Shown here: positions 8,444-22,442 of the stretch, in pieces | Layout: each line of letters begins with the position of its first letter | How positions within the stretch are numbered: the stretch's first letter is position 1 | Assembly (NCBI GenBank): GCA_900314975.1 | Contig: OMXI01000018.1 | Coordinates: 1 to 64,000, forward strand | Origin: an uncultured Eubacteriales bacterium | GTDB taxonomy: Bacteria; Bacillota; Clostridia; Oscillospirales; Ruminococcaceae | Direction of reading: 5' to 3' | Length of the DNA stretch: 64,000 nt | The notes under the pieces: model-generated | The model's input: only the letters and a program-made list of their open reading frames with translations | Told to the model about the DNA's origin: nothing | The model's database searches: none | Translations under genes and position numbers: made by a program

Positions 8444-8472
8444 TTGATTTTTCTTTATCTGTATGGTATAAT
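8444..8472 (+). promoter_or_regulatory. Promoter of toxin-antitoxin operon
   Basis: TTGATT (8444-8449), 17-bp spacer, perfect TATAAT (8467-8472) with an extended TGG just upstream. It is about 50 bp before the antitoxin start. It diverges from the defence-operon promoter within about 70 bp. Confidence 0.75.
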
Positions 8473-8524
8473 ATCAATAACGAAGAACAACCTATGTTTT
8501 GATACTATGAAAGGCGGGACTACA

Positions 8525-8785
8525 ATGGCTGCTATAGTAAACAATAATCAGTCTATAGAAAGCACAATTGAAATGCTTTCTTTGTTGAACGAAACAGAGT
8601 TGGCAGCTGTAAACGCTGTCATAAAGGCATTTGTCAGCAAACCCAAAGATGAAAACCCATATCAGAAATTGACCGAAGAACAATTATTTGAGCGGATAGA
8701 CAAGGCTTTGGCTAATGCTGAAAAAGGTATGTATAAAGATTCAGAGCAATTTGAAAAAGAACTGCTTGCGGAGTTTGGCGCATGA
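8525..8785 (+). CDS. Type II antitoxin
   Basis: An 86-residue acidic protein that starts at ATG 8525 with AAAGGCGG about 7 nt upstream; longer upstream frames lack a ribosome site. The N-terminus (MAAIVNNNQSIESTIEMLSLLNETEL) is compatible with a small dimerisation/DNA-binding module, and the C-terminus is amphipathic and charged (LTEEQLFERIDKALANAEKG), as in antitoxins that wrap their toxin. The stop overlaps the toxin start (ATGA at 8782-8785), typical of coupled toxin-antitoxin pairs. Autoregulation at the adjacent promoter is expected for the family but not visible directly. Confidence 0.75.
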   Translation: MAAIVNNNQSIESTIEMLSLLNETELAAVNAVIKAFVSKPKDENPYQKLTEEQLFERIDKALANAEKGMYKDSEQFEKELLAEFGA

Positions 8786-9099
8786 AGACATACAAAGTTG
8801 TTGTAACAGACGAAGCACAAGAAGCATTTAAAAGATACCTTCGCTATGTTAAGAACATCAAGAAAAATCCATATGCAGCAAAAAACATATTGGATGATTA
8901 CATAGCAACAAGAAAACAACTGTCATCATGTGCTGGTATGCTTGCCGAGCCTGAAAGCGAAAAGCTTCGTCAAAGGAATCTTAAAAGAATGAATTTCTTA
9001 AATCATGACTATTTTATTCTTTTTAAGATGGAGAACGATAAAGCTGTTATCGTCAGCATTTTTCACTCACTTGAGGACTTTGAAAACAAATTGAAATAA
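8782..9099 (+). CDS. RelE/ParE-family toxin
   Basis: A 105-residue basic protein matching the RelE/ParE fold: KVVVTDEAQEAFKRYLRYV at the start (beta strand then helix), a central helix (AAKNILDDYIATRKQL), and the C-terminal strand pattern KRMNFLNHDYFILFKMENDKAVIVSIFHS ending close to the usual length. Members either cleave ribosome-bound mRNA or inhibit gyrase; the sequence does not tell which. It overlaps the antitoxin gene by 4 bp. As the last gene before the putative attachment repeats it may help stabilise the island. Confidence 0.85.
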   Translation: MKTYKVVVTDEAQEAFKRYLRYVKNIKKNPYAAKNILDDYIATRKQLSSCAGMLAEPESEKLRQRNLKRMNFLNHDYFILFKMENDKAVIVSIFHSLEDFENKLK

Positions 9100-9648: not shown

Positions 9649-10486
9649 TCAGAAATCAAGCGGCTGAGCGGAATCTATCGCAGGCAGGAGCCTTTGGCGC
9701 AGTACACGCTCGATACGAATTTTCTTTGCTTCCTTGTTATCGCCGACTGTGCCGGTGGACTGGAAGGTCATCATCAGCAGGCAGTACGGCATAAGCTTGT
9801 GCGTGACAGCGCTTATCTCTTCGGGAGATGACACACCGAAATACGCGCCGCACATCACTCCCCATACTTTCTTGGCAAGTTCAAAATCAAATCCAAGAAG
9901 CCCAGCTCATCATCGCTTTTTGCACCGCCACGGCTTGTGGGGATAATAAGGTAGCAAAGCATCAGCCCTGCAATGTCAAACACGGGGTGTCCTGTCGCAG
10001 CATCGCCGATGTCGATAAGCAGGAACTCATCATCCTTCATCATAACATTCTTTGCATTGTAATCGCCATGCAGAAAGGTGTCACGGTCGGGAATGCTGTT
10101 TATAAAGCCCTTGACCTTTGCGGCTTCCTCCTCGGTAATAAACTCAGAAAGCGAATCCACCCACTCGGTCAGCTTCTGCATGCGGTCGGGAAGACATACG
10201 TCTTTTCCCGGGACGATAGTGTGCAGCTGTTTGAGCAGCCCTGCGCTTGTGCCAAAAACATAGGGTATCTTTGAGGGATCCTCGTCGATTATCCGGGCGG
10301 TGGTCTTTGCGTTCAGCAGCTCATACACCACGCCGTAGCGGTCACCGCACCTGACAACATCATAGGAAATAGCAGTCGGGACACCCATGAGAAATGCCTT
10401 ATGCGAGGTGCGGCGCTCCTGCTCTGCAAATTCAAGGCTGATACCGGGAAAAGAGTCAGGGTGTTGTTATCAATCGTTGTTTTCAT
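9649..10486 (-). pseudogene. APH/ChoK-like small-molecule kinase (TIGR02172-like), two frameshifts
   Basis: Translation starts at ATG 10486 (AGGAG 7 nt upstream, MKTTIDNNTLTLFP), but the frame must shift at a CCGG(G) tract near 10444-10448 to reach LEFAEQERRTSHKAFLMGVPTAI. A second shift near 9897-9900 is needed to read LGFDFELAKKVWGVMCGAYFG to the stop at 9649. The middle frame contains the phosphotransferase catalytic loop FLHGDYNAKN and the metal-binding IDIGD. Restoring one base at each site gives exactly 280 codons. The family is related to aminoglycoside/choline kinases of unknown substrate. It follows the dipeptidase gene by 20 bp and probably shares its promoter. Assembly error is the alternative to true decay. 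Confidence 0.8.
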
Positions 10487-10506
10487 GATGTTCTCCTTAA
10501 TTTCAT

Positions 10507-11163
10507 CTATCTTTTCAAGTATTCACACGATACAGGGAACTCAAAATATGTATCGGGATACGGCTCGTCTTTGAGTGCAAAATGCCACCATTCGCAATCA
10601 ATTGGCTCAAATCCGTTTCTAACCATAACGCTTTGCAGCTTCATTCGGTTCTCAAACTGCTCATCTGTTACAGCCTTTGAGTCGGGATGAGATACCTCGC
10701 TGAACAGGTCAAAGGGGCTGCCCATATCAAGCTCCTTGCCCGTTTTCATATCAAGCAGCGTAAGGTCCACGGTACTCCCCCTGCTGTGACTTGACTTGCT
10801 TGCGATATAACCCTTCGCAAACAGCTCCTGCTTTTCCAGATCGGGATAAAAGTAGGGCTTCATTCTCAGGTCAAGATCCTCTATCCCCCACATAACAAAA
10901 TGTCTTACTGCACAGGCGGGACGGTAGGCATCAAATATCTTCAGGCGATAACCCTGGACTATCATTTCGTTGCTCACAGACAAAAGCGCCCTCGCCGCCT
11001 GCTTGGTGATAAGTGCACAAGGCTCCTCATAACCGTTAATTCTGTCGCCTATAAAATTGTAGGTGGAGTAATAGCGTATTTCCTGAACTATCGCAGGCAC
11101 CATATCGGCAAGCACCACAAAGCCCGATGAATCCATTGTTATCTTTCTTTCTGCATCTGTCAT
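10507..11163 (-). CDS. ddpX: D-alanyl-D-alanine dipeptidase (VanX/DdpX family)
   Basis: The 218-residue protein has the family zinc site: SSHSRGSTVDLTL (S-x-H-x3-G-x-x-x-D pattern, about residues 122-134) and EWWHF near residue 191, plus the conserved DAYRP motif (78-82). The enzyme hydrolyses D-Ala-D-Ala, either for peptidoglycan-precursor recycling or, in vancomycin resistance, to remove the drug target; no vanA/vanH partners are present, so a recycling or cell-wall role is more likely. Start ATG has AGGAG 8 nt upstream. No signal peptide is seen, so it should be cytosolic. It is driven by the SARP-type promoter at 11295-11330. Confidence 0.88.
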   Translation of the reverse strand: MTDAERKITMDSSGFVVLADMVPAIVQEIRYYSTYNFIGDRINGYEEPCALITKQAARALLSVSNEMIVQGYRLKIFDAYRPACAVRHFVMWGIEDLDLRMKPYFYPDLEKQELFAKGYIASKSSHSRGSTVDLTLLDMKTGKELDMGSPFDLFSEVSHPDSKAVTDEQFENRMKLQSVMVRNGFEPIDCEWWHFALKDEPYPDTYFEFPVSCEYLKR

Positions 11164-11294: not shown

Positions 11295-11330
11295 ATTGTA
11301 GCATAATGCCTGCAACAAAAGTGCAACAAA
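11295..11330 (-). promoter_or_regulatory. SARP-type promoter A (ddpX operon)
   Basis: On the minus strand TTTGTTGCACT (11320-11330) and TTTGTTGCAGG (11309-11319) are adjacent 11-bp repeats. Then follow 8 bp and a TACAAT -10 box (11295-11300). A third degenerate copy (TTTGTCGGGA) lies just upstream. The geometry equals that of the promoters at 20174 and 22407. Confidence 0.75.
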
Positions 11331-11450
11331 TCCCGACAAAAGCGCCCTGTTAAAATCCACAAAGTTTTACAGCAATTTTTGTGACCGTTGTCATTTTCAA
11401 CATAGTTGTTGTGGAAATTTCGTCTTTTTAACTATACGAAAAACAGCCGA

Positions 11451-11486
11451 TTTGTAGCGGATTTGTTGCAGGTGATATGTTTGAAT
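11451..11486 (+). promoter_or_regulatory. SARP-type promoter D (surface-protein gene), weakened
   Basis: On the plus strand TTTGTAGCGGA (11451-11461) and TTTGTTGCAGG (11462-11472), then 8 bp and TTGAAT (11481-11486) in the -10 position. The spacing matches the other three sites, but one octamer and the -10 box are degenerate. It diverges from promoter A across about 120 bp. Confidence 0.6.
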
Positions 11487-11513
11487 AAGACCATAGCCGA
11501 TACATCAGTATAA

Positions 11514-13648
11514 TTACTGACGGCAAACTTTCCTGCACAAGCTGTTTTTGATAAGGCAGATGAAACAACCTACAATAAAATGTTTCTTATGGACAATTCT
11601 ACCCTGTCTGCTGACGCAAACCTTACTGCCTACGGTCTTACAATGGATTTTTCTGAATTTACATTGACCACTAACGGTAATAAATTCAGCGTCTCGCAGG
11701 ACAACGGCACAAGTACTCTGCGTAATGGCACAATTGACGGCGATGTTGACATGACGGTAGGAAGCGGCGAGATAGTTTTTAATAATATGGTCATTACAGG
11801 GTCGCTCAATAACGGTTCACACCCTGTTAGTATAGCAGACGGAGAATACGGTGATATTTCTACAGGCGCCGGCAAGGTTACTATCACAGGCGGTAATTTC
11901 GTTGGAACATTGTCCGGAGACAACATTGAGATTATGGGCGGTAATTTTGCTGAAAAGCCTGACAAGAAATATCTGCCTGATGGTTATACGGTTCTTGACT
12001 GTAACGAAACCATTGACGGTGTGACCTACAAGTATAAGGTAGCTAAAATCTACACAATCAAGTTCGTAAACGACGACGGAACAGAGCTGCAATCAAGCGA
12101 GATTGAATACGGCACAAAGCCTGCATACACAGGCGCAACTCCTACCAAGAAAGCCGATGCGCAGTACACCTACACTTTCAAGGGCTTCCTACCAAGAAAG
12201 CCGATGCGCAGTACACCTACACTTTCAAGGGCTGGGATAAGGAAATCTCTGCCGTAACAGGTGCGGCTACCTACAAGGCAACCTACAACAGCGCAGTTAA
12301 CAAAGCCGCTCTCAAAGCTGCTATCAAGAAGCTCGGCGAACTCAACGAGACTATCAAGGGAGACGAAATATACGCAGATATTTATGAGTCAGTGGTTGAG
12401 ATTCTTGAGGAGGCTCAGGCGGTTGCAGATAACGAAAAAGCAACTGTTGACGAAGTTGCCGAGCAGACAGAACTACTTGAAGAAATGATCGAACACTTCG
12501 ACGAAGCAAAGAAGCTGGTCAGGGATTTTGAGATATCAAACAATGTAGCAATAATGATAAACGAACTGCCCGAGCCGGATGACGTTGACAAGCCCGACAA
12601 GCAGGCTATCGAGGCTGCACGAACAGCTTTCGAGGCTCTGACAGACGATCAGAAAAAGATGATCACACAGTCGGATCTTTATCAGAAATTGATAGATGAT
12701 GAAAAAGCACTTGCGGACGCTTTGAAGCGAATTGACACAACAAGGCTTGCAGGCGCTAACCGCTTTGCAACAGCTGTTGAGATCTCAAAGGCAGGCTTTG
12801 AAGAAGCTGACACAGCAGTTCTTGCATACGGACTTAATTACGCTGACGCTCTCGCAGGCGTGCCGCTTGCAAACAAGCTGGGCGCACCTATCCTGCTCAC
12901 AGACAAGGACAAGCTCAACGCAGATACACTCGCAGAGATAAAGAGACTTGGCGCAAAGAATGTAATCATTCTCGGCGGCGAGGGAGTAATAAGTGCAGAT
13001 GTTGAAAAGGCACTTCAGGCTGAAGAGCTTTCAACCGAGCGTATCGCAGGCAAAACCAGATTCAGCACAGCAGCTGCCATTGCCGAAAGAGTGAATGAAA
13101 ACCCGACAGATGTGATATTTGTTTACGGTCTGGGTTATGCTGATGCGGTATCAGTAAGCAGCGTTGCAGCACTGAAAAATGCACCCATCATCTATCTCAC
13201 GACCGACGGCGAGCTTAATGCCGACACAGCAGCTTACCTTGCAAAGCTTAAAGAGGCTGGCAGCGTAAAGAACGCTTATGTTATCGGCGGTACGGGCGTT
13301 ATCTCGGACGATATGCTCAAAAAAGCAGGCGATGCACTCGGTGTAACACCGACAAGAGTTGCGGGCAAGGACAGATATGAAACAGGCGCTTTGGTAAACA
13401 AGACCTTCGCTGATGTGTTCACATCAGATACTGTCTGCGTTGCAACAGGACTTGACTTCCCCGATGCACTTGCAGGCGGAGTATTCGCAGCACAGCAGAA
13501 AGCGCCTTTGCTGCTTGCAAACGACACGCTTAAAGATGTGCACAAGACTTACCTCACAGAAAAGAATGCACATACCTTCTATGTATTTGGCGGCACAGGT
13601 GCCGTACCCGATAAGCTTGTAACAGAGATAACCGCATTGAGCAAATAA
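11514..13648 (+). pseudogene. CWB2 cell-wall-anchored surface protein, frame-broken and lacking a start
   Basis: The reading frame enters directly after a TAA at 11511 with [14 protein letters not shown], which looks like the end of a signal peptide; no start codon or ribosome site precedes it, and the promoter is only 25 bp away. Residues then form a repetitive beta-rich region, followed by an InlB B-repeat-like module ([12 protein letters not shown]). A 47-bp tandem duplication at 12141-12233 shifts the frame; removing one copy joins it to [13 protein letters not shown] and a helical spacer. Three CWB2 (cell wall binding repeat 2) units fill 12750-13648 ([42 protein letters not shown]). CWB2 triplets anchor proteins to secondary wall polymers. 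An intact shorter protein could still start at an internal ATG near 12392, but it would lack a signal peptide. Confidence 0.8.
12141..12233 (+). repeat. 47-bp tandem duplication breaking the surface-protein frame
   Basis: The 46-nt segment beginning CCTACCAAGAAAGCCGATGC at 12141 recurs exactly from 12188, giving a period of 47 nt. Because 47 is not a multiple of three, the duplication changes the frame; loss of one copy restores it. Confidence 0.95.
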
Positions 13649-13653
13649 CTAAC

Positions 13654-13690
13654 AAGAGCCGGTCTCACACACAGTGAGGCTGGCTCTTTT
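13654..13690 (+). terminator. Intrinsic terminator
   Basis: AAGAGCCGGTCTCAC pairs with GTGAGGCTGGCTCTT, followed by TTCTTT, directly after the surface-protein stop. Confidence 0.8.
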
Positions 13691-13813
13691 CTTTGGTTGC
13701 TCAAACCGGTGTCGCTGCTTTGCAGCACTCGTTTGAATTGCTGTATTTTTTTTGCTTAAATCGGGCTTTCAACACTGCTTAACAGATAGTGTTGATAAAT
13801 GGCAGTGAACAGC

Positions 13814-13847
13814 AAAAAATCGGTTCCGCAATACTAACGAAACCGAT
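13814..13847 (-). terminator. Intrinsic terminator of partner-switching operon
   Basis: On the minus strand ATCGGTTTCG pairs with CGGAACCGAT around a 9-nt loop and is followed by six T. It lies 66 bp beyond the last gene of the operon (ending at 13913). Confidence 0.8.
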
Positions 13848-13912
13848 CATATGCAATATCAGCCTTGACTATTTTGTGCATAAATATGTATCAGGCATAT
13901 TATCACAAAAAT

Positions 13913-14539
13913 CTATGGTCTCTCAAAAAGCTTTTCTACTACTATCTCCGTAGAATTTGTTTTAAGCCAGACCTTAACATCATCAGCGATCCTGGCAATT
14001 ATTGATTTTTCAAGTTCATCTCTTTCCTGTGCATCAGGCTCCATAGTTTGTTCAATGTAGCTGCGGTAAGCCATAAGTGACCACACATTAGTATCCGCAG
14101 GGCTGCCGTGACTTATTCCTACAGCATACCAGCTGTCTATCGCTGCCAATCCTGCCTGATCTGCGGTGATTGCAGGAGTCTGCATACTTGTGCGGAAAAG
14201 CTCTCTTATCTTTCCGACGATTCCTTTTGCATTCTCATTTTTTCCACTCGACGCAACTGACAACAGCTTATCTTCCTGTATCATATCTACTGATTTTTCG
14301 GCTGCAAGGCGTATGCGGCACACAAGACCTTTTTGTGTCATTTCGCTTTCCATATTGAAATCTGCCTCAAAATCATCAAGGATCCCATGTACCATACATA
14401 CTGTTTCCTCCGTAAGCAAACGGATATACATAGCATCTTTGCCGGTAAGCTCATTGTATAATGCAAATTGATCAGCAGTTTTGAGAACTTTATCTTTTCC
14501 TTTGAGGTCGCTGTGTATCTTTATAACATCTGTATTCAT
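13913..14539 (-). CDS. Uncharacterised protein, possibly a divergent ATPase-like regulator
   Basis: A 208-residue soluble protein I do not recognise. An ATG at 14539 preceded by GCGGGA is chosen; a GTG at 14557 overlapping the previous stop is the alternative. The segment YIRLLTEETVCMVHGILDDFEADF resembles the N-box region of anti-sigma HATPases (helix with E and a following H), but no glycine-rich G-box is evident, so any ATP binding is doubtful. A low-complexity middle (SSGKNENAKG) is followed by a helical C-terminus. It closes the operon that also encodes two STAS proteins, an RsbW-like kinase and a PP2C phosphatase, so a role in that switch is plausible. Confidence 0.6.
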   Translation of the reverse strand: MNTDVIKIHSDLKGKDKVLKTADQFALYNELTGKDAMYIRLLTEETVCMVHGILDDFEADFNMESEMTQKGLVCRIRLAAEKSVDMIQEDKLLSVASSGKNENAKGIVGKIRELFRTSMQTPAITADQAGLAAIDSWYAVGISHGSPADTNVWSLMAYRSYIEQTMEPDAQERDELEKSIIARIADDVKVWLKTNSTEIVVEKLFERP

Positions 14540-14553
14540 ATGTTTTCCCGCTT

Positions 14554-14853
14554 TCACTCTATTGTAAGTATTTCAGAGAATCCTGTTATGCTGAATATCT
14601 CCTTAATATCCTCGCTGCAGCCCCTGACTACCATTGTACCTTGAGTGTTCATGCATTTTTGAGCTGTAAGCAGTACACGCAGTCCGGCAGATGAAATGTA
14701 CTCAAGCTTACTGAAATCAAAGACGAGTTCGGTCACTGCGTCTATCGAGTCTTTCAGCTGTGCTTCAAGTTCAGGTGCAGTCGTGGTGTCCAGTCTGCCC
14801 TCTACCGCTACTGTCAGCTTGTCACCCTGCAATTGCTTATTTACTGTCATCAT
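14554..14853 (-). CDS. STAS-domain anti-anti-sigma factor-like protein
   Basis: About 99 residues forming one STAS domain, nearly parallel to the paralogue at 19819. It contains EGRLDTTTAPELE and the phosphorylation-loop signature FSKLEYISSAGLRVLL, in which the serine pair after I is the usual target of an RsbW/SpoIIAB-type kinase. The start is placed at ATG 14853 (AAGGA about 6 nt upstream) rather than the upstream TTG at 14874; ATG 14850 is equally possible. Unphosphorylated, such proteins bind and neutralise anti-sigma kinases. It follows the transporter-HATPase fusion by 29 bp, suggesting that fusion is its cognate kinase. Confidence 0.85.
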   Translation of the reverse strand: MMTVNKQLQGDKLTVAVEGRLDTTTAPELEAQLKDSIDAVTELVFDFSKLEYISSAGLRVLLTAQKCMNTQGTMVVRGCSEDIKEIFSITGFSEILTIE

Positions 14854-14882
14854 TATCATTCCTTTCTTTTTCAAGTCTCACA

Positions 14883-16631
14883 TTAAAGTGTAAGCGTAAG
14901 GTTGTTCAGTCCCAGCGAGTTCACATAGTTTGCGTCCTTGACCAGCTTCATTACCATTCTTATCCCGATGTGCGCCAACGGATCGTCAGACTCGTGAAGC
15001 TCCATATACTTGACAGGATCGAAGTTCGGGCAGTTGTCACGGATACGCAGTACGGGCGAACCGTTTTTCAGCATTACTCTCACGTCTATCGAGTGCTCTT
15101 TTCTGCCCTTGAACCCGTGGTAAGCGATGTTGTTTGCCATTTCCTCTATGCACAGCGCGATCATGGAGCTTATCCTGCTGCTCAGTCCGTGAGTGCGGCA
15201 GAATTCATCAGCCTGCTGTGAAACCTCCACAACTCCGTCAGGCTTAGTTATCGAGCTTTCAAAGCAGTCCTGCACCTGTGCGCCTAATTTGTCAGGCAGC
15301 ATAGCAAACGACTGTGCGCTGATCTCAAACTTCTTGTTTTTCATAAACACCACAAGCGCTATGCACAAAAGCGTGATGCCCTCGCCGCATAAAAAGCCCA
15401 GCCATATGCCCGTAACACCGATAAAACGGCTCAGCACAAATGCCGAGAGCGCTGTGAGCGCAAAGTTCTGAAATACCGAAATAGTCATTGTCAGCTTGAC
15501 TCGCTCGATACCCTGATAGTAGTTCTTGAAGCTCGTGTTCAAAGCGCACGCAACGAGCGACAGCACGAACAAACGCAATCCGCTGACCGCCATGTCCTTC
15601 GCCTCGGGATCGCTCAAAAACATTGTGACCAGAGGCTTTGCAGCGATAAGAACTATGACCGTCACCACCGTGCAGATAACTACTGCATAGCAGCTCATTA
15701 TCTTCACCAGCTTTTTCAGCGCAGTGCTGTCCTCATCGCCGTAGAAGATAGCCGAAAGCGTCAGCGCCACCGCTGCTATGCCAGAGGAAAACGCATAGCA
15801 GATGTTCCCCACCGTCGAGATAACAGAGTACGCTGCAACAGCGTGGTTTCCGCTTACATCAAGCAGCAGCTTGTTGAGAACGAAGGTCAGCAGCACAAGG
15901 CTCACCTGATTGATAAGCGTCGGAACACCGTCCTTCACAAGTCTCACACATACCTTGAAGCTGACCAGCTTGAATGAAAATCTGAAAATGCAGCTTTTCT
16001 TGAAAAAGTATGCAACGCCGATAACAAATGCTATGTAGTAGCTCAGGCTTGAAGCAAGCCCCATACCGAATGTACCCTTTTTGAAAACCGCTACATTGAG
16101 TATATCAAGCACAATGTCCCCGACAGTCATAGCCGCAACAGCGACCACGAGCCTTATCCTGCTGCCCGACATCTGCATATACGGAACCATTATCTGCGCC
16201 GCTATAAAAGCAGGTGCACCGATGATAAATCCACGCAGATAATCCCTTGTGAGACGGAACACCTCGTTGTCGGCAGATGGCTTGCCTGCACCCAGCATAG
16301 TGCAGATAGGGTCGGTGAATATCAGCACCGCAGCCATTCCGATAACAGAGATCGCTGCCGCAAGCACCACCGAAACAGTAAAGCAAGCGTTGGTGCCCTG
16401 CTTGTCACCGCTGCCCATTGTCTTTCCGCACATTACCTGTACTCCTGCCGATACCAGACAGCCAAGCGCCGCAAAAACAAGCAGCACGGGTGTCGCAAGT
16501 CCGTAAGCGGTCATCGAGTCAACGCCCAGGAATTTTCCTATCATCATACTGTCTATCAGCATACATAACGTCACCGTCATTGCAGACAGTATCTGCGTCA
16601 GCAGCATCTGTTTGAAAAGCTTGTTTATCAT
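14883..16631 (-). CDS. MATE-family transporter fused to a HATPase (anti-sigma-kinase-like) domain
   Basis: A 582-residue protein. Residues 1-440 contain about 12 hydrophobic segments with MATE features (LTQILSAMTVTLCMLIDSMMIG at the start, TPVLLVFAALG). Residues 443-582 are a soluble GHKL ATPase of the RsbW type: N-box ALCIEEMANNIAYHG, D-box RIRDNCPNFDP and a reduced glycine box HIGIRMVMKL. MATE proteins export drugs or metabolites by Na+/H+ antiport and normally end near residue 450, so the fusion is unusual. It may couple transport or membrane state to phosphorylation of the neighbouring STAS protein. Start ATG has GAGG 7 nt upstream. It is the fifth gene of the operon headed by promoter B. 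Confidence 0.88.
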   Translation of the reverse strand: MINKLFKQMLLTQILSAMTVTLCMLIDSMMIGKFLGVDSMTAYGLATPVLLVFAALGCLVSAGVQVMCGKTMGSGDKQGTNACFTVSVVLAAAISVIGMAAVLIFTDPICTMLGAGKPSADNEVFRLTRDYLRGFIIGAPAFIAAQIMVPYMQMSGSRIRLVVAVAAMTVGDIVLDILNVAVFKKGTFGMGLASSLSYYIAFVIGVAYFFKKSCIFRFSFKLVSFKVCVRLVKDGVPTLINQVSLVLLTFVLNKLLLDVSGNHAVAAYSVISTVGNICYAFSSGIAAVALTLSAIFYGDEDSTALKKLVKIMSCYAVVICTVVTVIVLIAAKPLVTMFLSDPEAKDMAVSGLRLFVLSLVACALNTSFKNYYQGIERVKLTMTISVFQNFALTALSAFVLSRFIGVTGIWLGFLCGEGITLLCIALVVFMKNKKFEISAQSFAMLPDKLGAQVQDCFESSITKPDGVVEVSQQADEFCRTHGLSSRISSMIALCIEEMANNIAYHGFKGRKEHSIDVRVMLKNGSPVLRIRDNCPNFDPVKYMELHESDDPLAHIGIRMVMKLVKDANYVNSLGLNNLTLTL

Positions 16632-16679
16632 AGATTTTTCCTCTTTGCTAACTTTCGTCTATATAATACCCCTGCCGCT

Positions 16680-17222
16680 TTAGATGCTTGCTATCGCTTC
16701 GCGCAATATCTTTTCTGCGTCCATGCCCTCTATATCAAGCATTTCAGCCATAACAAGACGAGTGTTTTTTATCCCGAAGCAGCCCTCAGCAAGCGCTTTG
16801 ATGTAGTCAAAGCTGAAATCGGGGATATACTTGCCGCCTGCCGTGGTGACGTATACCAGCTCGCTTGCTTTACACATTCCTATCGGTGTACCCCTTTCAT
16901 CGTAGCGCGAGACTATCCCCACAGCGTAGATATTCTCTATGTACACTTTCAGCAGCGACGGGAACGAGCCGTCCCAGAAAGGTGCCGATATAACTATCTT
17001 CTCGGCATTTGAAAACTGGTGTGCATAGTAAAACATCTGATCGTTCAGATCATTCCCTGCGAGCAGCTCCGTGCGCTTGTCGAGCATTTGTGCAGTCAAC
17101 GGCTTGAGGTCCTCATCGGGCAGGTAAAGCTCGGTGTATTTCCCCATTTTGTCAAGAACAGCTCTCGCAAGACGGTCTGTTCTTGAATTTTCACGCACGC
17201 AGCTGTTTATGTAAAGTATCAT
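16680..17222 (-). CDS. NAD(P)H-dependent FMN reductase / flavodoxin-fold oxidoreductase
   Basis: A 180-residue flavodoxin_2-type protein. The N-terminus MILYINSCVRENSRTDRLA is the FMN-phosphate loop (beta strand, S-x-R-x-x-S-R-T), KIVISAPFWDGSFPSLLKVYIENI at residues 74-97 contains the family's P-x-W motif for the flavin ring, and VTTAGG lies near 125-130. Related enzymes (AzoR, quinone and nitro reductases) reduce quinones or azo compounds with NAD(P)H. GAGGTG precedes the ATG by 7 nt. It lies between the phosphatase and transporter genes on one transcript, hinting that the system responds to a redox-active or toxic compound, which is inference. Confidence 0.8.
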   Translation of the reverse strand: MILYINSCVRENSRTDRLARAVLDKMGKYTELYLPDEDLKPLTAQMLDKRTELLAGNDLNDQMFYYAHQFSNAEKIVISAPFWDGSFPSLLKVYIENIYAVGIVSRYDERGTPIGMCKASELVYVTTAGGKYIPDFSFDYIKALAEGCFGIKNTRLVMAEMLDIEGMDAEKILREAIASI

Positions 17223-17237
17223 TTTTGTTCACCTCAA

Positions 17238-19394
17238 TTACATCAGTTTTACGCCAAGCATCGTCAGATCGTCAAACTGCGGTGCTTCGCCGACAAATTC
17301 GTCAACTGCATTTTTCATATTTAACAGCAGCGTTTTCGCATCAGCTGTCGGGTCTTGGTTGAGCGCAGCAAGCATTCTGTCGGTGCCGAACAGCTCGTTC
17401 TTCGAGTTGGTAGCTTCAGCCACTCCGTCAGTGTAAAGGAACAGCGTGCCGCCCTTTTCAAGAGTGAACTCGTACTCCTTGTAGCGCATACCCTTCATAC
17501 CGCCGATGACGAAACCGTGCTTGTCCTTGAACAGCTCAAAGCTGCCGTCTGCCTTTTTGATTATCGGGTACTCGTGACCTGCATTTGCAGCGGTAATTTT
17601 GCCTGTCGATATTTCAAGCACACCGAACCATACTGTGACAAACATCTCCTCGTCATTGTTCTTGCAGATCTGGGTGTTGGTCTGCTCCAGCACTTTAGCA
17701 GGACTTGAACCCATCATAGCGAAGTTGTTTACAAGTATCTTTGACATCATCATAAACAGCGCCGCAGGAACACCCTTGCCCGATACGTCCGCCATTACCA
17801 TTCCTAAGTGGTCGTCGTCTATAAGGAAAAAGTCGTAGAAATCTCCGCCGACCTCCTTTGCAGGCGTCATTGTGGCGAAAATGTCGAACTCCTCCCTTTC
17901 GGGAAATGCAGGAAAAATGTTTGGCAGCATATCCGCCTGTATCCTGGTCGCAAGCTCCAGCTCCGCGCCTATGCGCTCCTTTTCCGCGGTGATCTTTGTT
18001 ATCTGGTCAATATAATCTCTGGTGCGCTTTGAAAGCGTTGCAAACGCCTGAGCCAGCACCTCGATCTCGTCCTTTGTGCGATAGATGTCCTGCATCTCAA
18101 AGGCAAGGTCTGTGCCGTTAAGCTCGTAGATGCGCTTTGTCATATGCTCGATAGGCTTAACTATCCTGCCTGCAACAAAAAGTGCGCTGACAGCCGCAAG
18201 AACTAAAACAACAAGAGTGCTTACGAGCATTGTCTGCTTTGACTTGCTGACACCTTTTTCAAATTCCTCGGTGGACTTGTCATTTATCTGCTCATACTGC
18301 GTGAGCATTGTTTCTGTGGGCTGGCGTGTCAGCTGCTTTTCGACCGCTGAAACGACCGCCCAGCCGACCGTTCCCATAGGTGCACCTGTAAGGTAATATT
18401 CTTTTCCGTCAACGGTTATTGTCTCAAGACCTGTTCTTTCAGACAGAGCCTTTTTAACAAACGCCGCAAGCTCCGCATTTTCGGAGTTTCTCAGGTCATT
18501 TGACTCACTTGAAAGCTGCGGCGACAAGGTACCCTCTTTAAGCGGCGAGAACACTACCTTGCCCTCGTCATTTACAACGCACACAAAGCCTCCCTGCTTG
18601 TCACTGCTGTTGACATAATCAGAGATGCTTGTAAGAAAAATATCAGCGCCAACGACCGCCACAAGCTTGCCGTCCTTATACACAGGAGCCGCGCAGACAA
18701 GCCCTGCAATACCCGTTGAGGTATCAAGCTCTATGCCTGTGAAATACAAGCCTTTCTTTTCCACAGCACCCTTGTACCACGGGCGGTTTCTTACGTCAAA
18801 GTTCTTGATGACCTCGCCCTTGTCGTCCACATAAGAGCCCGAGCGGTCATCGACATACACGATAAGTCCGTCCGCCGTTGCAATAAAGCAGCTGTCAAGC
18901 TTATCAGAGCTTTGGTACATAGCTATCATAACATCACTCATATTGCCGATAAGCCCAAGCGTCTTTGTCGCATTGGGATCAACGCCCTGCTCGTGCTGGA
19001 GCTGCGCTGTGACTTTTCCGTCAAGTGAAGGATCGGGATAATTCACACTGCGGCTGCCAAAGCTTTCGGAATTTTCAAAAAGCCCTGTCGCAAACGCCTG
19101 GAGCGTTTTAACATCACTCTGAACGTCGGCGAACATATCGTCCGCTATGTATGCTTCCATAGCTGTTGTTTTTGTGAGCGAGCTGCTTATGACCGCCTCC
19201 ATAGTCTGATCCGAAACAGATGCGATAGACTTTTGCTGCTCATCGCTTGCCTCATCTACGGTTTTAGTAAGCGAATTACTCTGATAGACAGCAACAGCAA
19301 CATAAATCCCGACTATCGCCAGCACAAATATCAGCACAAGATTGAGTATCTTCTGCTGCAATCCTCCGATAGTGAGGCCGAATTTTTTTATCAT
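17238..19394 (-). CDS. Cache-HAMP-PP2C (SpoIIE/RsbU-like) sensor phosphatase
   Basis: 718 residues: a membrane segment at about 15-35, a large extracytoplasmic double Cache sensor (about 65-385, with RNRPWYKGAVEKKGLYFTG and YLTGAPMGTVGWAVV), a second membrane segment at about 395-415, a HAMP linker (VAGRIVKPIEHMTKRI), a short coiled coil, and a C-terminal PP2C phosphatase (EVGGDFYDFFLIDDDHLG, MADVSGKGVPAALFM, LYTDGVAEATN, DDLTMLGVKL). The metal-binding aspartates of the PP2C core are present. Such proteins dephosphorylate STAS anti-anti-sigma factors on receiving an external signal. The start overlaps the upstream anti-sigma kinase gene by 4 bp. Cache ligands are usually small organic molecules; the ligand here is unknown. 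Confidence 0.92.
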   Translation of the reverse strand: MIKKFGLTIGGLQQKILNLVLIFVLAIVGIYVAVAVYQSNSLTKTVDEASDEQQKSIASVSDQTMEAVISSSLTKTTAMEAYIADDMFADVQSDVKTLQAFATGLFENSESFGSRSVNYPDPSLDGKVTAQLQHEQGVDPNATKTLGLIGNMSDVMIAMYQSSDKLDSCFIATADGLIVYVDDRSGSYVDDKGEVIKNFDVRNRPWYKGAVEKKGLYFTGIELDTSTGIAGLVCAAPVYKDGKLVAVVGADIFLTSISDYVNSSDKQGGFVCVVNDEGKVVFSPLKEGTLSPQLSSESNDLRNSENAELAAFVKKALSERTGLETITVDGKEYYLTGAPMGTVGWAVVSAVEKQLTRQPTETMLTQYEQINDKSTEEFEKGVSKSKQTMLVSTLVVLVLAAVSALFVAGRIVKPIEHMTKRIYELNGTDLAFEMQDIYRTKDEIEVLAQAFATLSKRTRDYIDQITKITAEKERIGAELELATRIQADMLPNIFPAFPEREEFDIFATMTPAKEVGGDFYDFFLIDDDHLGMVMADVSGKGVPAALFMMMSKILVNNFAMMGSSPAKVLEQTNTQICKNNDEEMFVTVWFGVLEISTGKITAANAGHEYPIIKKADGSFELFKDKHGFVIGGMKGMRYKEYEFTLEKGGTLFLYTDGVAEATNSKNELFGTDRMLAALNQDPTADAKTLLLNMKNAVDEFVGEAPQFDDLTMLGVKLM

Positions 19395-19807
19395 TTGCTC
19401 ACCAGACCTTTTTTCAAAGTAAGGACATTATGCCCGTCAAGATATTTGTATTCAACATCGTCCATGGTCTTTTTCACCATAAAGATACCCAGCCCGCCTA
19501 TCTGTCTTTCCTCTATTGAGAGGGTAACATCGGGGTCAGCTTTAGCAAGCGGGTCATAGGGTATCCCTTGGTCGATAAAGGTTATTTGAACCGCAGGCGG
19601 CTCGTTTGTGACCTCCACCCGCACCGCTGCCGTGCCGACCTCTTGCTCGTAGGCATAGTGGGCGATATTGACAAATATCTCCTCGACGGCTATGTCGATC
19701 TGCATCTGTATCTTCACAGGGCACTGTGCCGCTTCAAGCTGCTCGTCAACAAATCCAAGCACCTGCGGCAGATTTTCCGTCAGAGCGTCAATAATTAATT
19801 CCTTCAT
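19391..19807 (-). CDS. RsbW/SpoIIAB-like anti-sigma serine kinase
   Basis: 138 residues of a GHKL ATPase: N-box IDIAVEEIFVNIAHYAY (about 38-54), D-box ITFIDQGIPYDPL (about 75-87) and G-box ERQIGGLGIFMVKKTMD (about 100-116). This domain phosphorylates STAS proteins and usually also sequesters a sigma factor or other output protein. No sigma factor gene is present in this operon, so the output partner is elsewhere or is not a sigma factor. It is placed between the STAS gene (11-bp gap) and the PP2C phosphatase (4-bp overlap), the standard partner-switching arrangement. Confidence 0.9.
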   Translation of the reverse strand: MKELIIDALTENLPQVLGFVDEQLEAAQCPVKIQMQIDIAVEEIFVNIAHYAYEQEVGTAAVRVEVTNEPPAVQITFIDQGIPYDPLAKADPDVTLSIEERQIGGLGIFMVKKTMDDVEYKYLDGHNVLTLKKGLVSK

Positions 19808-19818
19808 TTTCTTCTTCC

Positions 19819-20115
19819 TTATTCTATGGTGAGAATATCCGTAAAGCCCGTTACCTCAAATATCTCCATGATGTCCCGGCTGACATTCACAAGCTTCATG
19901 CCGCCCTTTTTGCTCATCACCTTCTGTGCGGACAGCAGCACACGCAGTCCTGCGGAAGAGATATACTCCACATCTTTAAAGTCGAGAACAAGTGCTTCAC
20001 AGCTGTCGTAGCTGTCCTTCAGTTCGTTTTCAAGTGCAGGTGCGGTCGTGGTGTCTACTCTGCCGCTTATTGCTATGTTCAATGTACCTGCGTTAGTTTC
20101 CTTTCTTATCTCCAT
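19819..20115 (-). CDS. STAS-domain anti-anti-sigma factor-like protein
   Basis: 98 residues, a complete STAS domain: SGRVDTTTAPALENELKDS, then FKDVEYISSAGLRVLLSAQK with the conserved serine target after I, and a C-terminal VTGFTDILTIE also found in the paralogue at 14554. It is the first gene of a seven-gene minus-strand operon and expected substrate of the downstream RsbW-like kinase and PP2C phosphatase. AGGAT lies about 8 nt before the ATG. Transcription starts from the SARP-type promoter at 20174-20209. Confidence 0.92.
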   Translation of the reverse strand: MEIRKETNAGTLNIAISGRVDTTTAPALENELKDSYDSCEALVLDFKDVEYISSAGLRVLLSAQKVMSKKGGMKLVNVSRDIMEIFEVTGFTDILTIE

Positions 20116-20173
20116 GATCCATCATCCTTTCAAAAAATTATTGCATAGAGTTCCCTCTATAATCTGCCTGTTA

Positions 20174-20209
20174 ATTATACTACATCGGGCGCAACAAATC
20201 CGCAACAAA
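20174..20209 (-). promoter_or_regulatory. SARP-type promoter B (partner-switching operon)
   Basis: Minus strand: TTTGTTGCGGA (20199-20209) and TTTGTTGCGCC (20188-20198) are adjacent 11-bp repeats, followed by 8 bp and a perfect TATAAT (20174-20179), about 60 bp upstream of the first STAS gene. No -35 box is recognisable, as expected for an activator-dependent promoter. Confidence 0.8.
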
Positions 20210-20265
20210 ACGGGCATTTTCGCCATCGTGATTTTTCGCGAACTTTGCAGCCGGAAGTTGTGCAT

Positions 20266-21075
20266 TTAGCCCAAGCTGTTTTCATTATAGTATTTCATTT
20301 CCAGAAACTCCCTTGTTTCTTCCGCAAAGCTGTACTGGGTCATATACTCGCCTGTGTAGCGTGATATAGCGTAGGGGTCGCCGTCGAGATAACGGTAATA
20401 ATCACAGTCAAGCACAGCCGTATTTATCCCGAAAGTTCCCGAGGATTATACTATCAGGTCCTCAATACCCAATGCCAAAAAGCTCACAATAATATCGCCG
20501 ATATATACCCTTATCTTGCTTTTCGTGGGATCGTCGGGTGCTTTGTCAGGCTCGATATTGCCGATGAGCATATCCATATTGCACAGTGCGCCTTTTCGGT
20601 CGATAAGATATGCCAGCGTTTCCTTGCTTTTCTGCCGCTTGAACTTTACAGGCTCATCATTTACGAACACCTCAAAGCTGCCGAAGCACTGGACTCTTAC
20701 AGGTCTGCTGTCTATGCTGAAAGGTTTGTGGCGAAGGTGCTGCAAAGCGTCTCTTACCTTTTTCTCGGAAAACGGCTTTAGCAGATAGCCGCTTGCGTGC
20801 ATATCAAAGGCGGAGGGCATATATTCTGAATAACCTGTCAGAAAGATGATGTTGCAAAACGGATAGCGCTTTACTATCCTTTTTGCAAGCTCTATCCCGT
20901 CCATACCCGGCATTTCCACATCCAGAAAAGCGACCTCTATCGGCTTGTTCAGTTCTTTTATCACCTCAAAAGGATCGGTATAGAACCTGTGTTCTCCGCC
21001 CGGATCTATCTTTTTAAGCATTCGCCCGAGCATTGTAATAACAGATGTTCTGTCGTCAACTCCTATTATATACAT
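20266..21075 (-). pseudogene. SARP-like response regulator interrupted by an in-frame stop
   Basis: The first 209 codons encode a receiver domain (acidic pair D7-D8, phosphoacceptor D52 in FLDVEMPGMDG, LLKPF near 107) and most of an OmpR/SARP-type winged helix (RVQCFGSFEVFVNDEPVKFK, then the recognition-helix region). A TAA at 20446-20448 follows EDLIV. The same frame then continues for 59 more codons, SSGTFGINTAVLDCDYYRYL to NSLG and a stop at 20266, which supplies the wing hairpin and C-terminal helices seen in intact relatives. One substitution therefore explains the interruption. The truncated protein would lack the wing. ATG overlaps the kinase stop (TGATG). The regulator is the obvious candidate reader of the four 11-bp-repeat promoters. 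Confidence 0.82.
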
Positions 21076-22376
21076 CAGCTGTCCTCCGATTTAGTATTTT
21101 GGGGCAGAGTTATCACGGCTTTTGCCCCGTTATCCGATATATCGACATCAAGCGTTCCGCCGCATTGCAGCGCTAAACGCTGACGGGCATTTTCTATGCC
21201 TACGCTGCGATGCTCCTTCTGCTTTGAGGTCAAAGCGGCATTTGTTCCTGCACCGTTGTCGGTAACGGTTATTATGATACTCCCGTCTTGTTCCTCGGTC
21301 TTTATCTTTACCACGCCCGAGCCGTCACGCCTTGAAAGTGCTCCGTACTTTATGGCGTTCTCAACAATGGGCTGGACGGTCAGGGGCGGTATTTTGAAAT
21401 CTCTGATATGAAGCTCATAAACAATGGTGAAATCCACTTCTGTGCCCGCCTTTTCAAGTGTCACATAGCGGTTTATGTGTTCAAGCTCCGACTCAAAGCT
21501 GATAGGCTCATCAGACGAGAGAGAGTCGATATTCGCCCTGAGATAATCTCCGAAAATGTCGATGTAGTCCGCAGCGGCTTCGCCATCGGTATAGCACAGC
21601 GACTGTATGGTAACAAGGGAATTGAAGATGAAATGCGGCTGGATCTGTGCCACCAGCAGCTTGTTTCTTTCCTGTTCAAGCTCTATACGGCTCTCGTAAA
21701 GATCCCTCTGATTTGTGTTGTAGCTTACTGCCGCAAGGTAGAAATAGTATATCATTATCTCGATTACAGCTATTTCGGTCGTGTGACCCGTGATGATTCC
21801 CCGATATTCCAGAAGCGTCGTTGTCATACTTGAAAAAGAAACGAACACTACGATCATACCCTTGGCGTATTCTTTTTGATGAATGAATCTCAGAGAATAA
21901 TACATCAGCAGTATCATATAAAAACACAAAACGAGCGCGGGCAGAACATGGAGCTTTCCCGACACAAAATTATGCTCTGCACCGTATCCGTATATATTAT
22001 TCAACCCGAAAAGGTCTGCGATCACAACAGCGACCTCAACAGCATACGGTATCAGCAGCAATTTTTTTCGTTTGATAGGTGCAATAAGGTACAGCTGCAT
22101 AATTATCAGCAAAGGCTGTACACAATAGCACACCGCCGCCTTGAAATACAGTATCCACACAGGCTTATTGTAAGCATCGCACCATTTTTCAAGATTTTCA
22201 AACAGTGTCAGCACAAACGCAAGCGCCGTGAGCGCACGAAAGAACTTAGCTCCCTCGATCTTGTTGTGACGGTTTGCAATAAGGATAATGACAAGTCCCG
22301 CAAGCAGTATGAGCGTGATATAATAGTTTTCAATCAATTCTCTTAAATAGTTAAGCGTCATAATCACCCGTTTCAC
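21075..22376 (-). CDS. LytS/YehU-type sensor histidine kinase
   Basis: 433 residues: about six or seven hydrophobic segments within residues 15-225, a short coiled coil (RIELEQERNKLL), the HisKA_5-type phosphoacceptor motif IQPHFIFNSL (about 250-259), the N-box TVQPIVENAIKYGA, and a C-terminal GHKL domain (VTDNGAG, SVGIENARQRL). This family usually pairs with LytTR regulators, but here the partner is a SARP-like regulator starting at the overlapping stop. No separate sensory domain is present, so the membrane bundle probably detects the signal, as in peptide-sensing kinases. The given start is a GTG at 22376; an ATG at 22361 is also possible. Promoter C lies 30-65 bp upstream. Confidence 0.88.
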   Translation of the reverse strand: MKRVIMTLNYLRELIENYYITLILLAGLVIILIANRHNKIEGAKFFRALTALAFVLTLFENLEKWCDAYNKPVWILYFKAAVCYCVQPLLIIMQLYLIAPIKRKKLLLIPYAVEVAVVIADLFGLNNIYGYGAEHNFVSGKLHVLPALVLCFYMILLMYYSLRFIHQKEYAKGMIVVFVSFSSMTTTLLEYRGIITGHTTEIAVIEIMIYYFYLAAVSYNTNQRDLYESRIELEQERNKLLVAQIQPHFIFNSLVTIQSLCYTDGEAAADYIDIFGDYLRANIDSLSSDEPISFESELEHINRYVTLEKAGTEVDFTIVYELHIRDFKIPPLTVQPIVENAIKYGALSRRDGSGVVKIKTEEQDGSIIITVTDNGAGTNAALTSKQKEHRSVGIENARQRLALQCGGTLDVDISDNGAKAVITLPQNTKSEDS

Positions 22377-22406
22377 TTATGACTTTTTTATATCTTGATT
22401 ATCTTA

Positions 22407-22442
22407 ATTATACCATACTCTGCGCAACAAATGTGCAACAAA
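22407..22442 (-). promoter_or_regulatory. SARP-type promoter C (kinase-regulator operon)
   Basis: Minus strand: TTTGTTGCACA (22432-22442) and TTTGTTGCGCA (22421-22431), then 8 bp and a perfect TATAAT (22407-22412). Its presence before the two-component genes suggests autoregulation. Confidence 0.8.

Follow-up and report, generated by a model that had tools for sequence, protein, structure and literature searches.

The question raised by a 64,000-nucleotide stretch from an uncultured Ruminococcaceae bacterium (assembly GCA_900314975.1, contig OMXI01000018.1, positions 1 to 64,000), hereafter the window, is which protein reads the paired octamers that precede four of its promoters, and what is placed under its control. 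The comparisons given below, on the presence, geometry and genomic co-occurrence of the repeats, the fold of a neighbouring protein and its covariation with the repeats, make it very probable that the four repeats are the operators of a family of kinase-linked SARP-like response regulators, one of which is encoded at 20446-21075. The sequence-only reading of the window had located four such sites, and all of them were found at its coordinates and on its strands:

11295..11330, minus strand: operator-promoter 1, TTTGTTGC-act-TTTGTTGC-N11-TACAAT, with the -10 box at 11295-11300, 131 nt upstream of the start of an M15 dipeptidase gene
11451..11486, plus strand: operator-promoter 2, TTTGTAGC-gga-TTTGTTGC-N11-TTGAAT, with a weak -10 box at 11481-11486, upstream of a surface-protein gene
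20174..20209, minus strand: operator-promoter 3, TTTGTTGC-gga-TTTGTTGC-N11-TATAAT, with the -10 box at 20174-20179, 58 nt upstream of the start of a STAS gene
22407..22442, minus strand: operator-promoter 4, TTTGTTGC-aca-TTTGTTGC-N11-TATAAT, with the -10 box at 22407-22412, 30 nt upstream of the start of a kinase gene

The layout of each site is octamer, 3 bp, octamer, 11 bp and -10 hexamer, with an octamer start-to-start distance of 11 bp, so that the 11-bp period of paired octamers described earlier was recovered, and all four carry at most one mismatch per 16 octamer bases. The exact pair TTTGTTGC-N3-TTTGTTGC is present in three of the four, and the plus-strand pair at 11451-11469 differs in its first unit, TTTGTAGC; the -10 of this second site (TTGAAT) has just 4/6 identity to TATAAT. 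The sequence TGn stands immediately 5' of the -10 hexamer in three of the four sites. The further claim that the downstream unit ends 8 bp before the -10 holds if the repeat is taken as an 11-mer (TTTGTTGC-RSW), or if the distance is measured to the TGn, and fails for the octamer itself, which is separated from the hexamer by 11 bp. The 11-mer as the repeat unit is supported by the logo of 74 unique sites, in which the pattern-free positions 9-11 and 20-21 are skewed to R-S-W and R-S, respectively; the same logo gives an extended -10, TRTGnTATAAT, of which the TG and TATAAT columns, like those of the octamers, were fixed by the search pattern (<=3 mismatches), while the R-S-W columns and the T at position 26 were not.

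According to PMC10936776, SARP operators consist of 11-bp repeats, the 3' one lying 8 bp from the -10, and the protomers of bound AfsR each touch the first 8 bp of an 11-bp repeat, leaving the last 3 bp free; the latter corresponds to the octamer-plus-three pattern seen here. The window sites are tandem direct repeats with the SARP spacing of 11 (or 22) bp, and the known SARP arrangement, as invoked in the sequence-only reading, fits when the repeats are counted as 11-mers, the second of which ends 8 bp before the -10, the 8 bp being judged by the rule in PMC10936776 and not by a base-by-base register to the afsS promoter. The same layout also suits a different reader, in that the repeats might be bound by an ordinary OmpR/PhoB-type regulator or another factor encoded elsewhere, with the neighbouring regulator as a bystander. 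OmpR/PhoB regulators use tandem 11-bp sites near the -35, and the PhoB-type activators likewise have 11-bp direct repeats over it; geometry alone does not tell SARP from PhoB-type operators.

Chance was assessed in the own genome of the window (G000, 2.92 Mb), where the pattern TTTGTWGC-N3-TTTGTTGC occurs without mismatch four times, these being the four window sites; the genome-wide search that had been proposed as a check thus returned a motif well away from chance frequency and confined to one place. With one mismatch allowed in the octamer pair, there are five matches and none for the reversed pattern, the fifth (C42:26191) having TATACA at the -10 place and no TGn and falling outside the full pattern, and the pattern including the -10 (<=3 mismatches) returns exactly the four window sites. 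In second-order Markov copies of the window (n=60), the pairs with <=1 mismatch have a mean of 0.03 and a maximum of 1, versus 4 in the real sequence. The octamer pair at <=2 mismatches gives 12 matches in the genome and likewise 12 for the reversed pattern, and such looser octamer-only matches are therefore meaningless; in the window itself, the pair alone at <=3 mismatches was observed 4 times against 1.28 expected, 4 being reached in 6 of 100 shuffles.

The comparison of genomes supports that the repeats follow the regulator gene, beyond the genus and into Treponema. Orthologues of the regulator, with 62-86% identity, were found in 5 of 28 other congeneric genomes, and the six orthologue-bearing genomes contain 24 of the 30 octamer pairs (<=1 mismatch) present in all 29, while the remaining six are spread over the 23 genomes without an orthologue and are taken as background, because the reversed pattern gives 8 in 29 genomes. 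A hexamer with 5-6/6 identity to TATAAT stands at exactly 11 nt in 21 of the 24 pairs, the other three being a pair of G017 with TATAAT at 10 nt and two with 4/6 identity (window site 2 and C42 of the own genome), and in none of the six background pairs is there a hexamer with at least 5/6. The full geometry with TGnTATAAT (<=3 mismatches) places 26 of 27 sites in the six genomes, with none in the 29 for the reversed control, and the single outside site belongs to G011, which encodes paralogues of the regulator family. The control spacing with a gap of 10 has two matches in the 29 genomes, one in G017, where 10 is the true spacing, and one in G018 (C8) beside a 39% paralogue.

In the wider set, named genomes were scanned by peptide pattern and tblastn, which yielded 73 regulator loci, among them 22 at 57-100% identity, chiefly from metagenome-assembled genomes of Ruminococcus, 44 at 34-42% identity from Lachnospiraceae, other Clostridia, Treponema and others, and 7 weak or partial ones. 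Sixteen further regulator-bearing genomes were searched whole, including 13 with near orthologues and three distant ones picked for already-seen sites (L115, L123 and L142; the genomes behind L104, L109 and L113 lay outside this search), and 15 of the 16 carry sites, 55 in total, with a reversed control of 0/16. For the near orthologues alone the sites were found in 12 of 13 genomes, and together with the six congeneric genomes in 18 of 19. In a sample of 295 genomes of the order, the own genome included, seven match the pattern and one matches its reverse. Beyond the own genome, only G331 exceeds two sites in this sample, with seven, and the expectation from these sites that it encodes the regulator family, which was recorded together with its test, proved right (E 4e-113), two of the sites being about 4 kb away from the gene. 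Another matching genome, G289, also encodes the family, and four more with site matches (G046, G048, G166 and G320) gave no family match better than E 1e-23, the tail being uncovered among the matches listed. This tracking of the regulator gene across genera, as far as Treponema, together with several paralogues that have their own operator variants alongside, argues against a bystander.

The gene so followed belongs to a kinase-regulator operon, in which operator-promoter 4 would provide autoregulation:

21075..22376, minus strand: sensor histidine kinase (PF06580 His_kinase, HATPase_c), the first gene of the operon
20446..21075, minus strand: response regulator with a receiver (REC) domain and a SARP-like winged helix, with an in-frame stop after residue 209
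20266..20445, minus strand: C-terminal remainder of the regulator, 59 codons and a stop, in frame after the premature stop

The intact orthologues comprise 269-272 residues from the aligned Met, in the order receiver, winged helix and short tail. The REC domain (PF00072) was found in 6/6 clade proteins, the window copy included, as the sole Pfam domain above its cut-off; Asp52 is invariant in a 50-row alignment of the regulators, and the REC domain with an adjoining PF06580 kinase identifies a two-component response regulator. Trans_reg_C had no match in four of the six clade proteins and 12-13 bits (threshold 26.2) in two, and was matched at E<=1 by 18 of 29 family members (best 2.4e-5). It is the only DNA-binding Pfam family that many members match, which speaks for an ordinary OmpR/PhoB-type regulator, whereas the fold points to SARPs. 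A profile of the C-terminal half against PDB ranked EmbR (E 0.004) and AfsR (0.008) before the best OmpR-type entry, 1p2f (0.045), the unrelated CofB (0.019) standing between AfsR and 1p2f. The AlphaFold model of the same half (pLDDT 95) matched in Foldseek the AfsR and EmbR chains at ranks 1-6 (E 5e-6 to 6e-4), with alignments over 164-176 columns, gaps included, TMq 0.59-0.75 and a root-mean-square deviation of 3.8-5.8 A, so that the match of the tail is one of general course and not of detail; OmpR-type regulators ranked after them, over 84-112 columns, mostly about 85, with TMq up to 0.49. With the full-length model, the OmpR-type regulators were matched first because of the REC domain, and the C-terminal half was then modelled alone.

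Behind the wing, the models show three helices, over which the SARP matches extend; the activation domain of AfsR has seven, the first three of which are packed on the winged helix (PMC10936776). The fold ranks 1-6 and the two best profile matches place the protein in the SARP subtype of OmpR-type winged helices, whereas the definition of SARPs by Pfam BTAD (PF03704) next to PF00486, as given in PMC10663231, does not apply, and it is called SARP-like rather than a SARP member because it lacks a Pfam BTAD and has a stub of the activation domain only. The regulator is accordingly read, from the models, as a SARP-like protein in which a receiver controls a stub of an activation domain; the earlier claim of a SARP-like response regulator in the cluster is borne out by the AfsR/EmbR ranks in this BTAD-free sense. 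By homology, it belongs to a large family of predicted REC and SARP-like regulators that occurs in Clostridia and extends to Treponema.

A more specific link between protein and repeat was obtained from the comparison of recognition helices with local operators, in which residue 189 covaries with base 8 of the repeat: R or K goes with C, Q with T, and D with G. For lineage-grouped pairs with good sites, 11 of 13 agree (permutation p 0.0004), or 10 of 12 with two similar D-type regulators merged (p 0.001), and 15 of 19 with weak sites added (p 5e-5); a narrower pair set, with the weak L146 and L157 in and the weak disagreeing L145 and L132 out, gave 15/17 (p 2e-5) and 10/12 (p 0.0016). Site scores of >=16 were reached by 10 real sites and by none in six Markov replicates of 650 kb, and a score of 15 by 4 real sites versus 0.33. 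In G071, from four TTTGTTGG sites, a D-type (D189) paralogue was predicted beforehand and then found; its gene, at C34:4502-5293, is some 150 bp away from one of these sites, and TTTGTTGC sites stand within about 1.5 kb of two R-type paralogues in this genome. By an alignment made by eye, residue 189 would correspond to AfsR Arg87, a backbone contact at that end of the repeat; the covariation is observed, and residue 189 may read base 8 directly. As base 8 covaries with a recognition-helix residue of the SARP-like family, and the modelled C-terminal half aligns to SARPs over more columns than to OmpR-type regulators, a reader of the OmpR/PhoB type or one encoded elsewhere is very improbable, although seemingly intact operators stand here beside a truncated regulator, and many distant family members have no such site nearby.

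When the 44 distant loci were scanned for self-similar units built on a TTTG core, nine sites in eight loci came out at period 11 and gap 11, the other 48 combinations of period and gap having 0-2 sites each; the same sites resurface as TTGT at gap 10 (seven) and TGTT at gap 9 (five). The operator variants at such loci include TTTGTGTC, TTTGTGAC and TTTGTTGT, and several regulator paralogues have their own variants beside them. Among 50 regulator loci listed against local operators, a candidate site was found at 23. The site lies ahead of the kinase gene, or of an open frame in its place before the regulator, in G000, G018, L097, L138 and L142, about 320 nt upstream of the regulator in L120 and L124, and as two sites in L156 (Candidatus Fibrimonas), where the locus is partly masked; the gap is one base shorter in a few sites (L051 and two in G068). 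At L030 (2363-3500, G013), downstream of a Q-type paralogue stand three promoters that carry TCTGTAAG-N3-TTTGTAAG at identical geometry and, by eye, a fourth similar one, with small genes behind them, including one for a 47-residue peptide.

Behind the operators of the window, apart from the kinase-regulator operon, the following genes are placed:

19819..20115, minus strand: STAS anti-sigma-factor-antagonist-like protein, the first gene behind operator 3
19391..19807, minus strand: RsbW-like HATPase_c_2 kinase
17238..19394, minus strand: SpoIIE-type phosphatase with a dCache sensor
16680..17222, minus strand: flavodoxin-fold oxidoreductase, with a similar protein directly behind an operator in G068 (L290)
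14883..16631, minus strand: MATE transporter with a C-terminal HATPase_c_2, an anti-sigma-type domain in one protein with it, within the partner-switching run
14554..14874, minus strand: second STAS protein
13913..14557, minus strand: last gene of the partner-switching run, with no family at E<=0.001
11580..13648, plus strand: CWB2-repeat cell-surface protein, split into the frames 11580-12257 and 12392-13648
10507..11163, minus strand: M15 peptidase of the D-Ala-D-Ala dipeptidase type

The M15 peptidase reaches 206 bits against the NCBIfam VanX model, below the 320-bit cut-off, and is not assigned to VanX. In the surface-protein gene, a short direct repeat near 12140-12240 seems, by eye, to cause the frame shift, and between promoter 2 and 11580 no start with a signal sequence was seen by eye. 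The frame-broken kinase-like gene of the APH fold (PF01636) at 9855-10490 lies behind the dipeptidase, and in relatives (L083, L087 and L303) single proteins joining this fold to STAS domains are encoded behind operators.

The set of STAS, RsbW-like and SpoIIE proteins behind operator 3 suggests a further reader, namely an alternative sigma factor that partner switching by this operon would set free, for which the repeats would be the recognition element. This is scarcely credible, since the -10 is an extended TRTGnTATAAT, as for the housekeeping sigma (the TATAAT and TG columns were preset in the 74-site logo, but not in the octamer-pair searches with <=1 mismatch), two tandem copies are unexpected for a sigma -35, no sigma gene was found among the 19 window proteins scanned, and the same operator precedes the gene in the kinase place of the Treponema family member L142.

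In relatives, the partner-switching genes, like the kinase-regulator operon, recur as predicted targets of the regulator. A STAS gene with a site was found in 9 of the 18 orthologue-bearing genomes with a STAS match, the own genome included, as 10 genes, of which the two in G068 have a gap of 10, and in none of the three genomes without the regulator; in G017 the STAS gene closely follows the regulator gene and has no site of its own. Of the 14 orthologue-bearing genomes with an M15 match (two of the matches partial), three have a site before the M15 gene, as against 0/2 without the regulator; the scores in this comparison are bimodal, with 19-22 for sites and 10-16 for shuffled sequence. The dipeptidase was dropped as a core target for its 3/14, and part of the regulon is accordingly this genome's and not the clade's. 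Thus, of the regulon proposed earlier, joining a D,D-dipeptidase, a surface protein and a partner-switching operon, the last is recurrent, while the dipeptidase is occasional, and the surface-protein gene and the regulator are broken here; the comparison of upstream regions, likewise proposed, shows the site before STAS genes in half of the genomes with the regulator and a STAS match, and no site before most of the dipeptidase genes.

Other genes behind sites encode STAS-APH kinase fusions, a tyrosine phosphatase-like protein, GH3, a solute-binding protein and an acetolactate decarboxylase-like protein with a score just under its cut-off. Genes for small peptides of the type MNENFEKYI..LSPE.QEKA..CKTKEEL..FIAENDLELPEEALE.VAGG recur behind sites in G062 (5/6 sites), G061, G066, G068, G076, G024 and G019, and in G076 such a gene adjoins a radical SAM gene. 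Tandem arrays of these Nif11-like peptide genes are found in G066 (contigs C33 and C105) and G062 (C18 and C30), an operator preceding the first gene of the G066 C33 cluster (12393-14636) and of the G062 C18 array. The label Nif11-like is used because the peptides stay below the curated thresholds: Pfam Nif11 gave 13-19 bits (cut-off 23.8) in 6/10 peptides and no match in 4/10, and NCBIfam leader_Nif11 gave 13-14 bits (cut-off 32.3) in 3/7. The peptide genes are present in 7 of 11 regulator-bearing genomes, the seven in which they had already been seen, in 0/4 without the regulator, and not in the own genome.

A number of results weigh against the operator reading as set out above. Pfam BTAD was matched at E<=1 by 0/6 clade proteins and was not among the families listed (25 of 33) for 29 more members. 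The orthologue-bearing G065 has no site at <=3 mismatches, and G317 encodes a family member without a TTTGTTGC site, so that not every family member goes with this operator; 27 of the 50 regulator loci listed are without a candidate site, as are 36 of the 44 distant loci in the TTTG-core scan. No single geometry stood out when the loci were scanned without a fixed core: period 11 gave 14, 14, 12, 5 and 4 matches at gaps 9 to 13 and period 12 up to 10, and the TTTG core was picked only after this output. The residue-base rule has exceptions among good sites (L033, R with T; L030, Q with G) and weak ones (L145, L132), the lineages were grouped by eye, and, G071 excepted, the rule was framed after seeing the pairs. 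A STAS orthologue without a site occurs in 9/18 regulator-bearing genomes with a STAS match, and an M15 dipeptidase without one in 11/14. The window regulator is truncated after residue 209, and among 12 receiver matches in the own genome the next best has E 7e-10 and covers the receiver part only, so that no second full-length copy was seen there.

The truncation bears on the function of the sites in this genome. The stop codon sits where 5/5 congeneric orthologues have Lys or Arg, and falls inside the wing hairpin (residues 208-217 in the modelled orthologue), for which reason the regulon here may be silent; it is probably without an activator, unless an error in the sequence or a polymorphism of the strain accounts for the stop. 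A related possibility is a real pair of operator and regulator whose regulon here is a decaying relic, with four sites that have no present function, which is compatible with the operator reading, concerns this genome only, and comes close to an even chance without reaching it. The in-frame stop, the surface-protein gene split in two frames, the broken APH-fold kinase-like gene, and the number of sites, just four and all local versus 12 in G068, are what such decay would leave; set against it are the four operators with no more than a single mismatch each, the partner-switching and kinase genes, which are still open, and the possible origin of the stop in an error or polymorphism. In RUG14906 (L161:6627-7408), a regulator copy is interrupted after about 60 residues, and three good operators are on the same contig.

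For the clade, the operator reading would imply the following course, in which we infer phosphorylation, dimer binding, activation and the residue-base contact. The membrane kinase, taken as the partner from operon order, would phosphorylate the REC domain at Asp52 of the orthologues; two regulator molecules would bind side by side, as in the AfsR complex, one TTTGTTGC octamer each of the tandem 11-bp units, with helix residue 189 presumably reading base 8 of each unit; and the bound dimer would occupy the place of the -35, so that RNA polymerase could start from the extended -10 TRTGnTATAAT. The predicted targets are the kinase-regulator operon, the STAS/RsbW/SpoIIE partner-switching operon, STAS-kinase fusions, Nif11-like peptide genes, and surface or secreted proteins.

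With AfsR and other SARPs, the system shares the winged helix followed by the start of an activation domain, the two tandem 11-bp repeats over the -35 place, of which the 3' one ends 8 bp before the -10 (as in PMC10936776), and the peptide genes among the clade targets. It differs from them in the N-terminal receiver domain and kinase partner, about three activation-domain helices instead of the seven of AfsR and no Pfam BTAD, a T/G-rich operator, TTTGTTGC, with a strong TATAAT instead of a poor -10, a host outside actinomycetes, and partner-switching and envelope genes among the targets. EmbR of Mycobacterium, the best PDB profile match with a similar fold, belongs to another phylum and ends in an FHA domain (PMC10936776), in contrast to the REC domain at the front here. 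With OmpR/PhoB regulators, the common features are REC and a winged helix, the fold alignment being confined to the latter. The COG3947-type response regulators consist of receiver, winged helix and BTAD, the same domain order with a longer tail than here, and the literature listings searched showed neither operator nor geometry nor regulon for them. The authors of the AfsR structure compare SARP activation to PafBC, a helper of promoters with a poor -35 (PMC10936776); the likeness of PafBC sigma adaptation to the SARP-like regulator is by mechanism only. In PMC10663231, BTAD response regulators make up 0.6% of the response regulators counted near biosynthetic clusters.

A broader proposal, which has an even chance of being right, is that SARP-type activation is not a speciality of actinomycetes, and that in Clostridia and Treponema the REC and SARP-like regulators make up a single system whose DNA code can be read, of fixed geometry and with base 8 set by residue 189, and that in Ruminococcus this system couples a membrane kinase to partner-switching operons and tandem arrays of leader-type peptides. 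As residue 189 would set base 8, the regulon of each paralogue could be predicted from sequence, and this one-residue specificity rule has passed one prediction recorded beforehand. The system suggests that a stub of the activation domain may suffice for SARP-type activation when a receiver domain supplies the control. The operator, promoter geometry and regulon would be the first for this family of SARP-like response regulators outside actinomycetes, none having been found in the literature searched; papers describing operators or regulons of this kind in Clostridia were likewise absent from it, which is weak evidence of novelty because most subscription journals lie outside its coverage. For the rumen Ruminococcus, the system may be a switch for many leader-type peptide genes, and such control of peptide arrays, if true, would parallel the SARP control of antibiotic clusters in Streptomyces.

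Elsewhere in the window, two small overlapping open frames at 8444-9099 give the impression of a toxin-antitoxin-type pair, and at 29713-31443 an ammonium transporter is fused to a P-II protein, adjoining a gene for type III glutamine synthetase.

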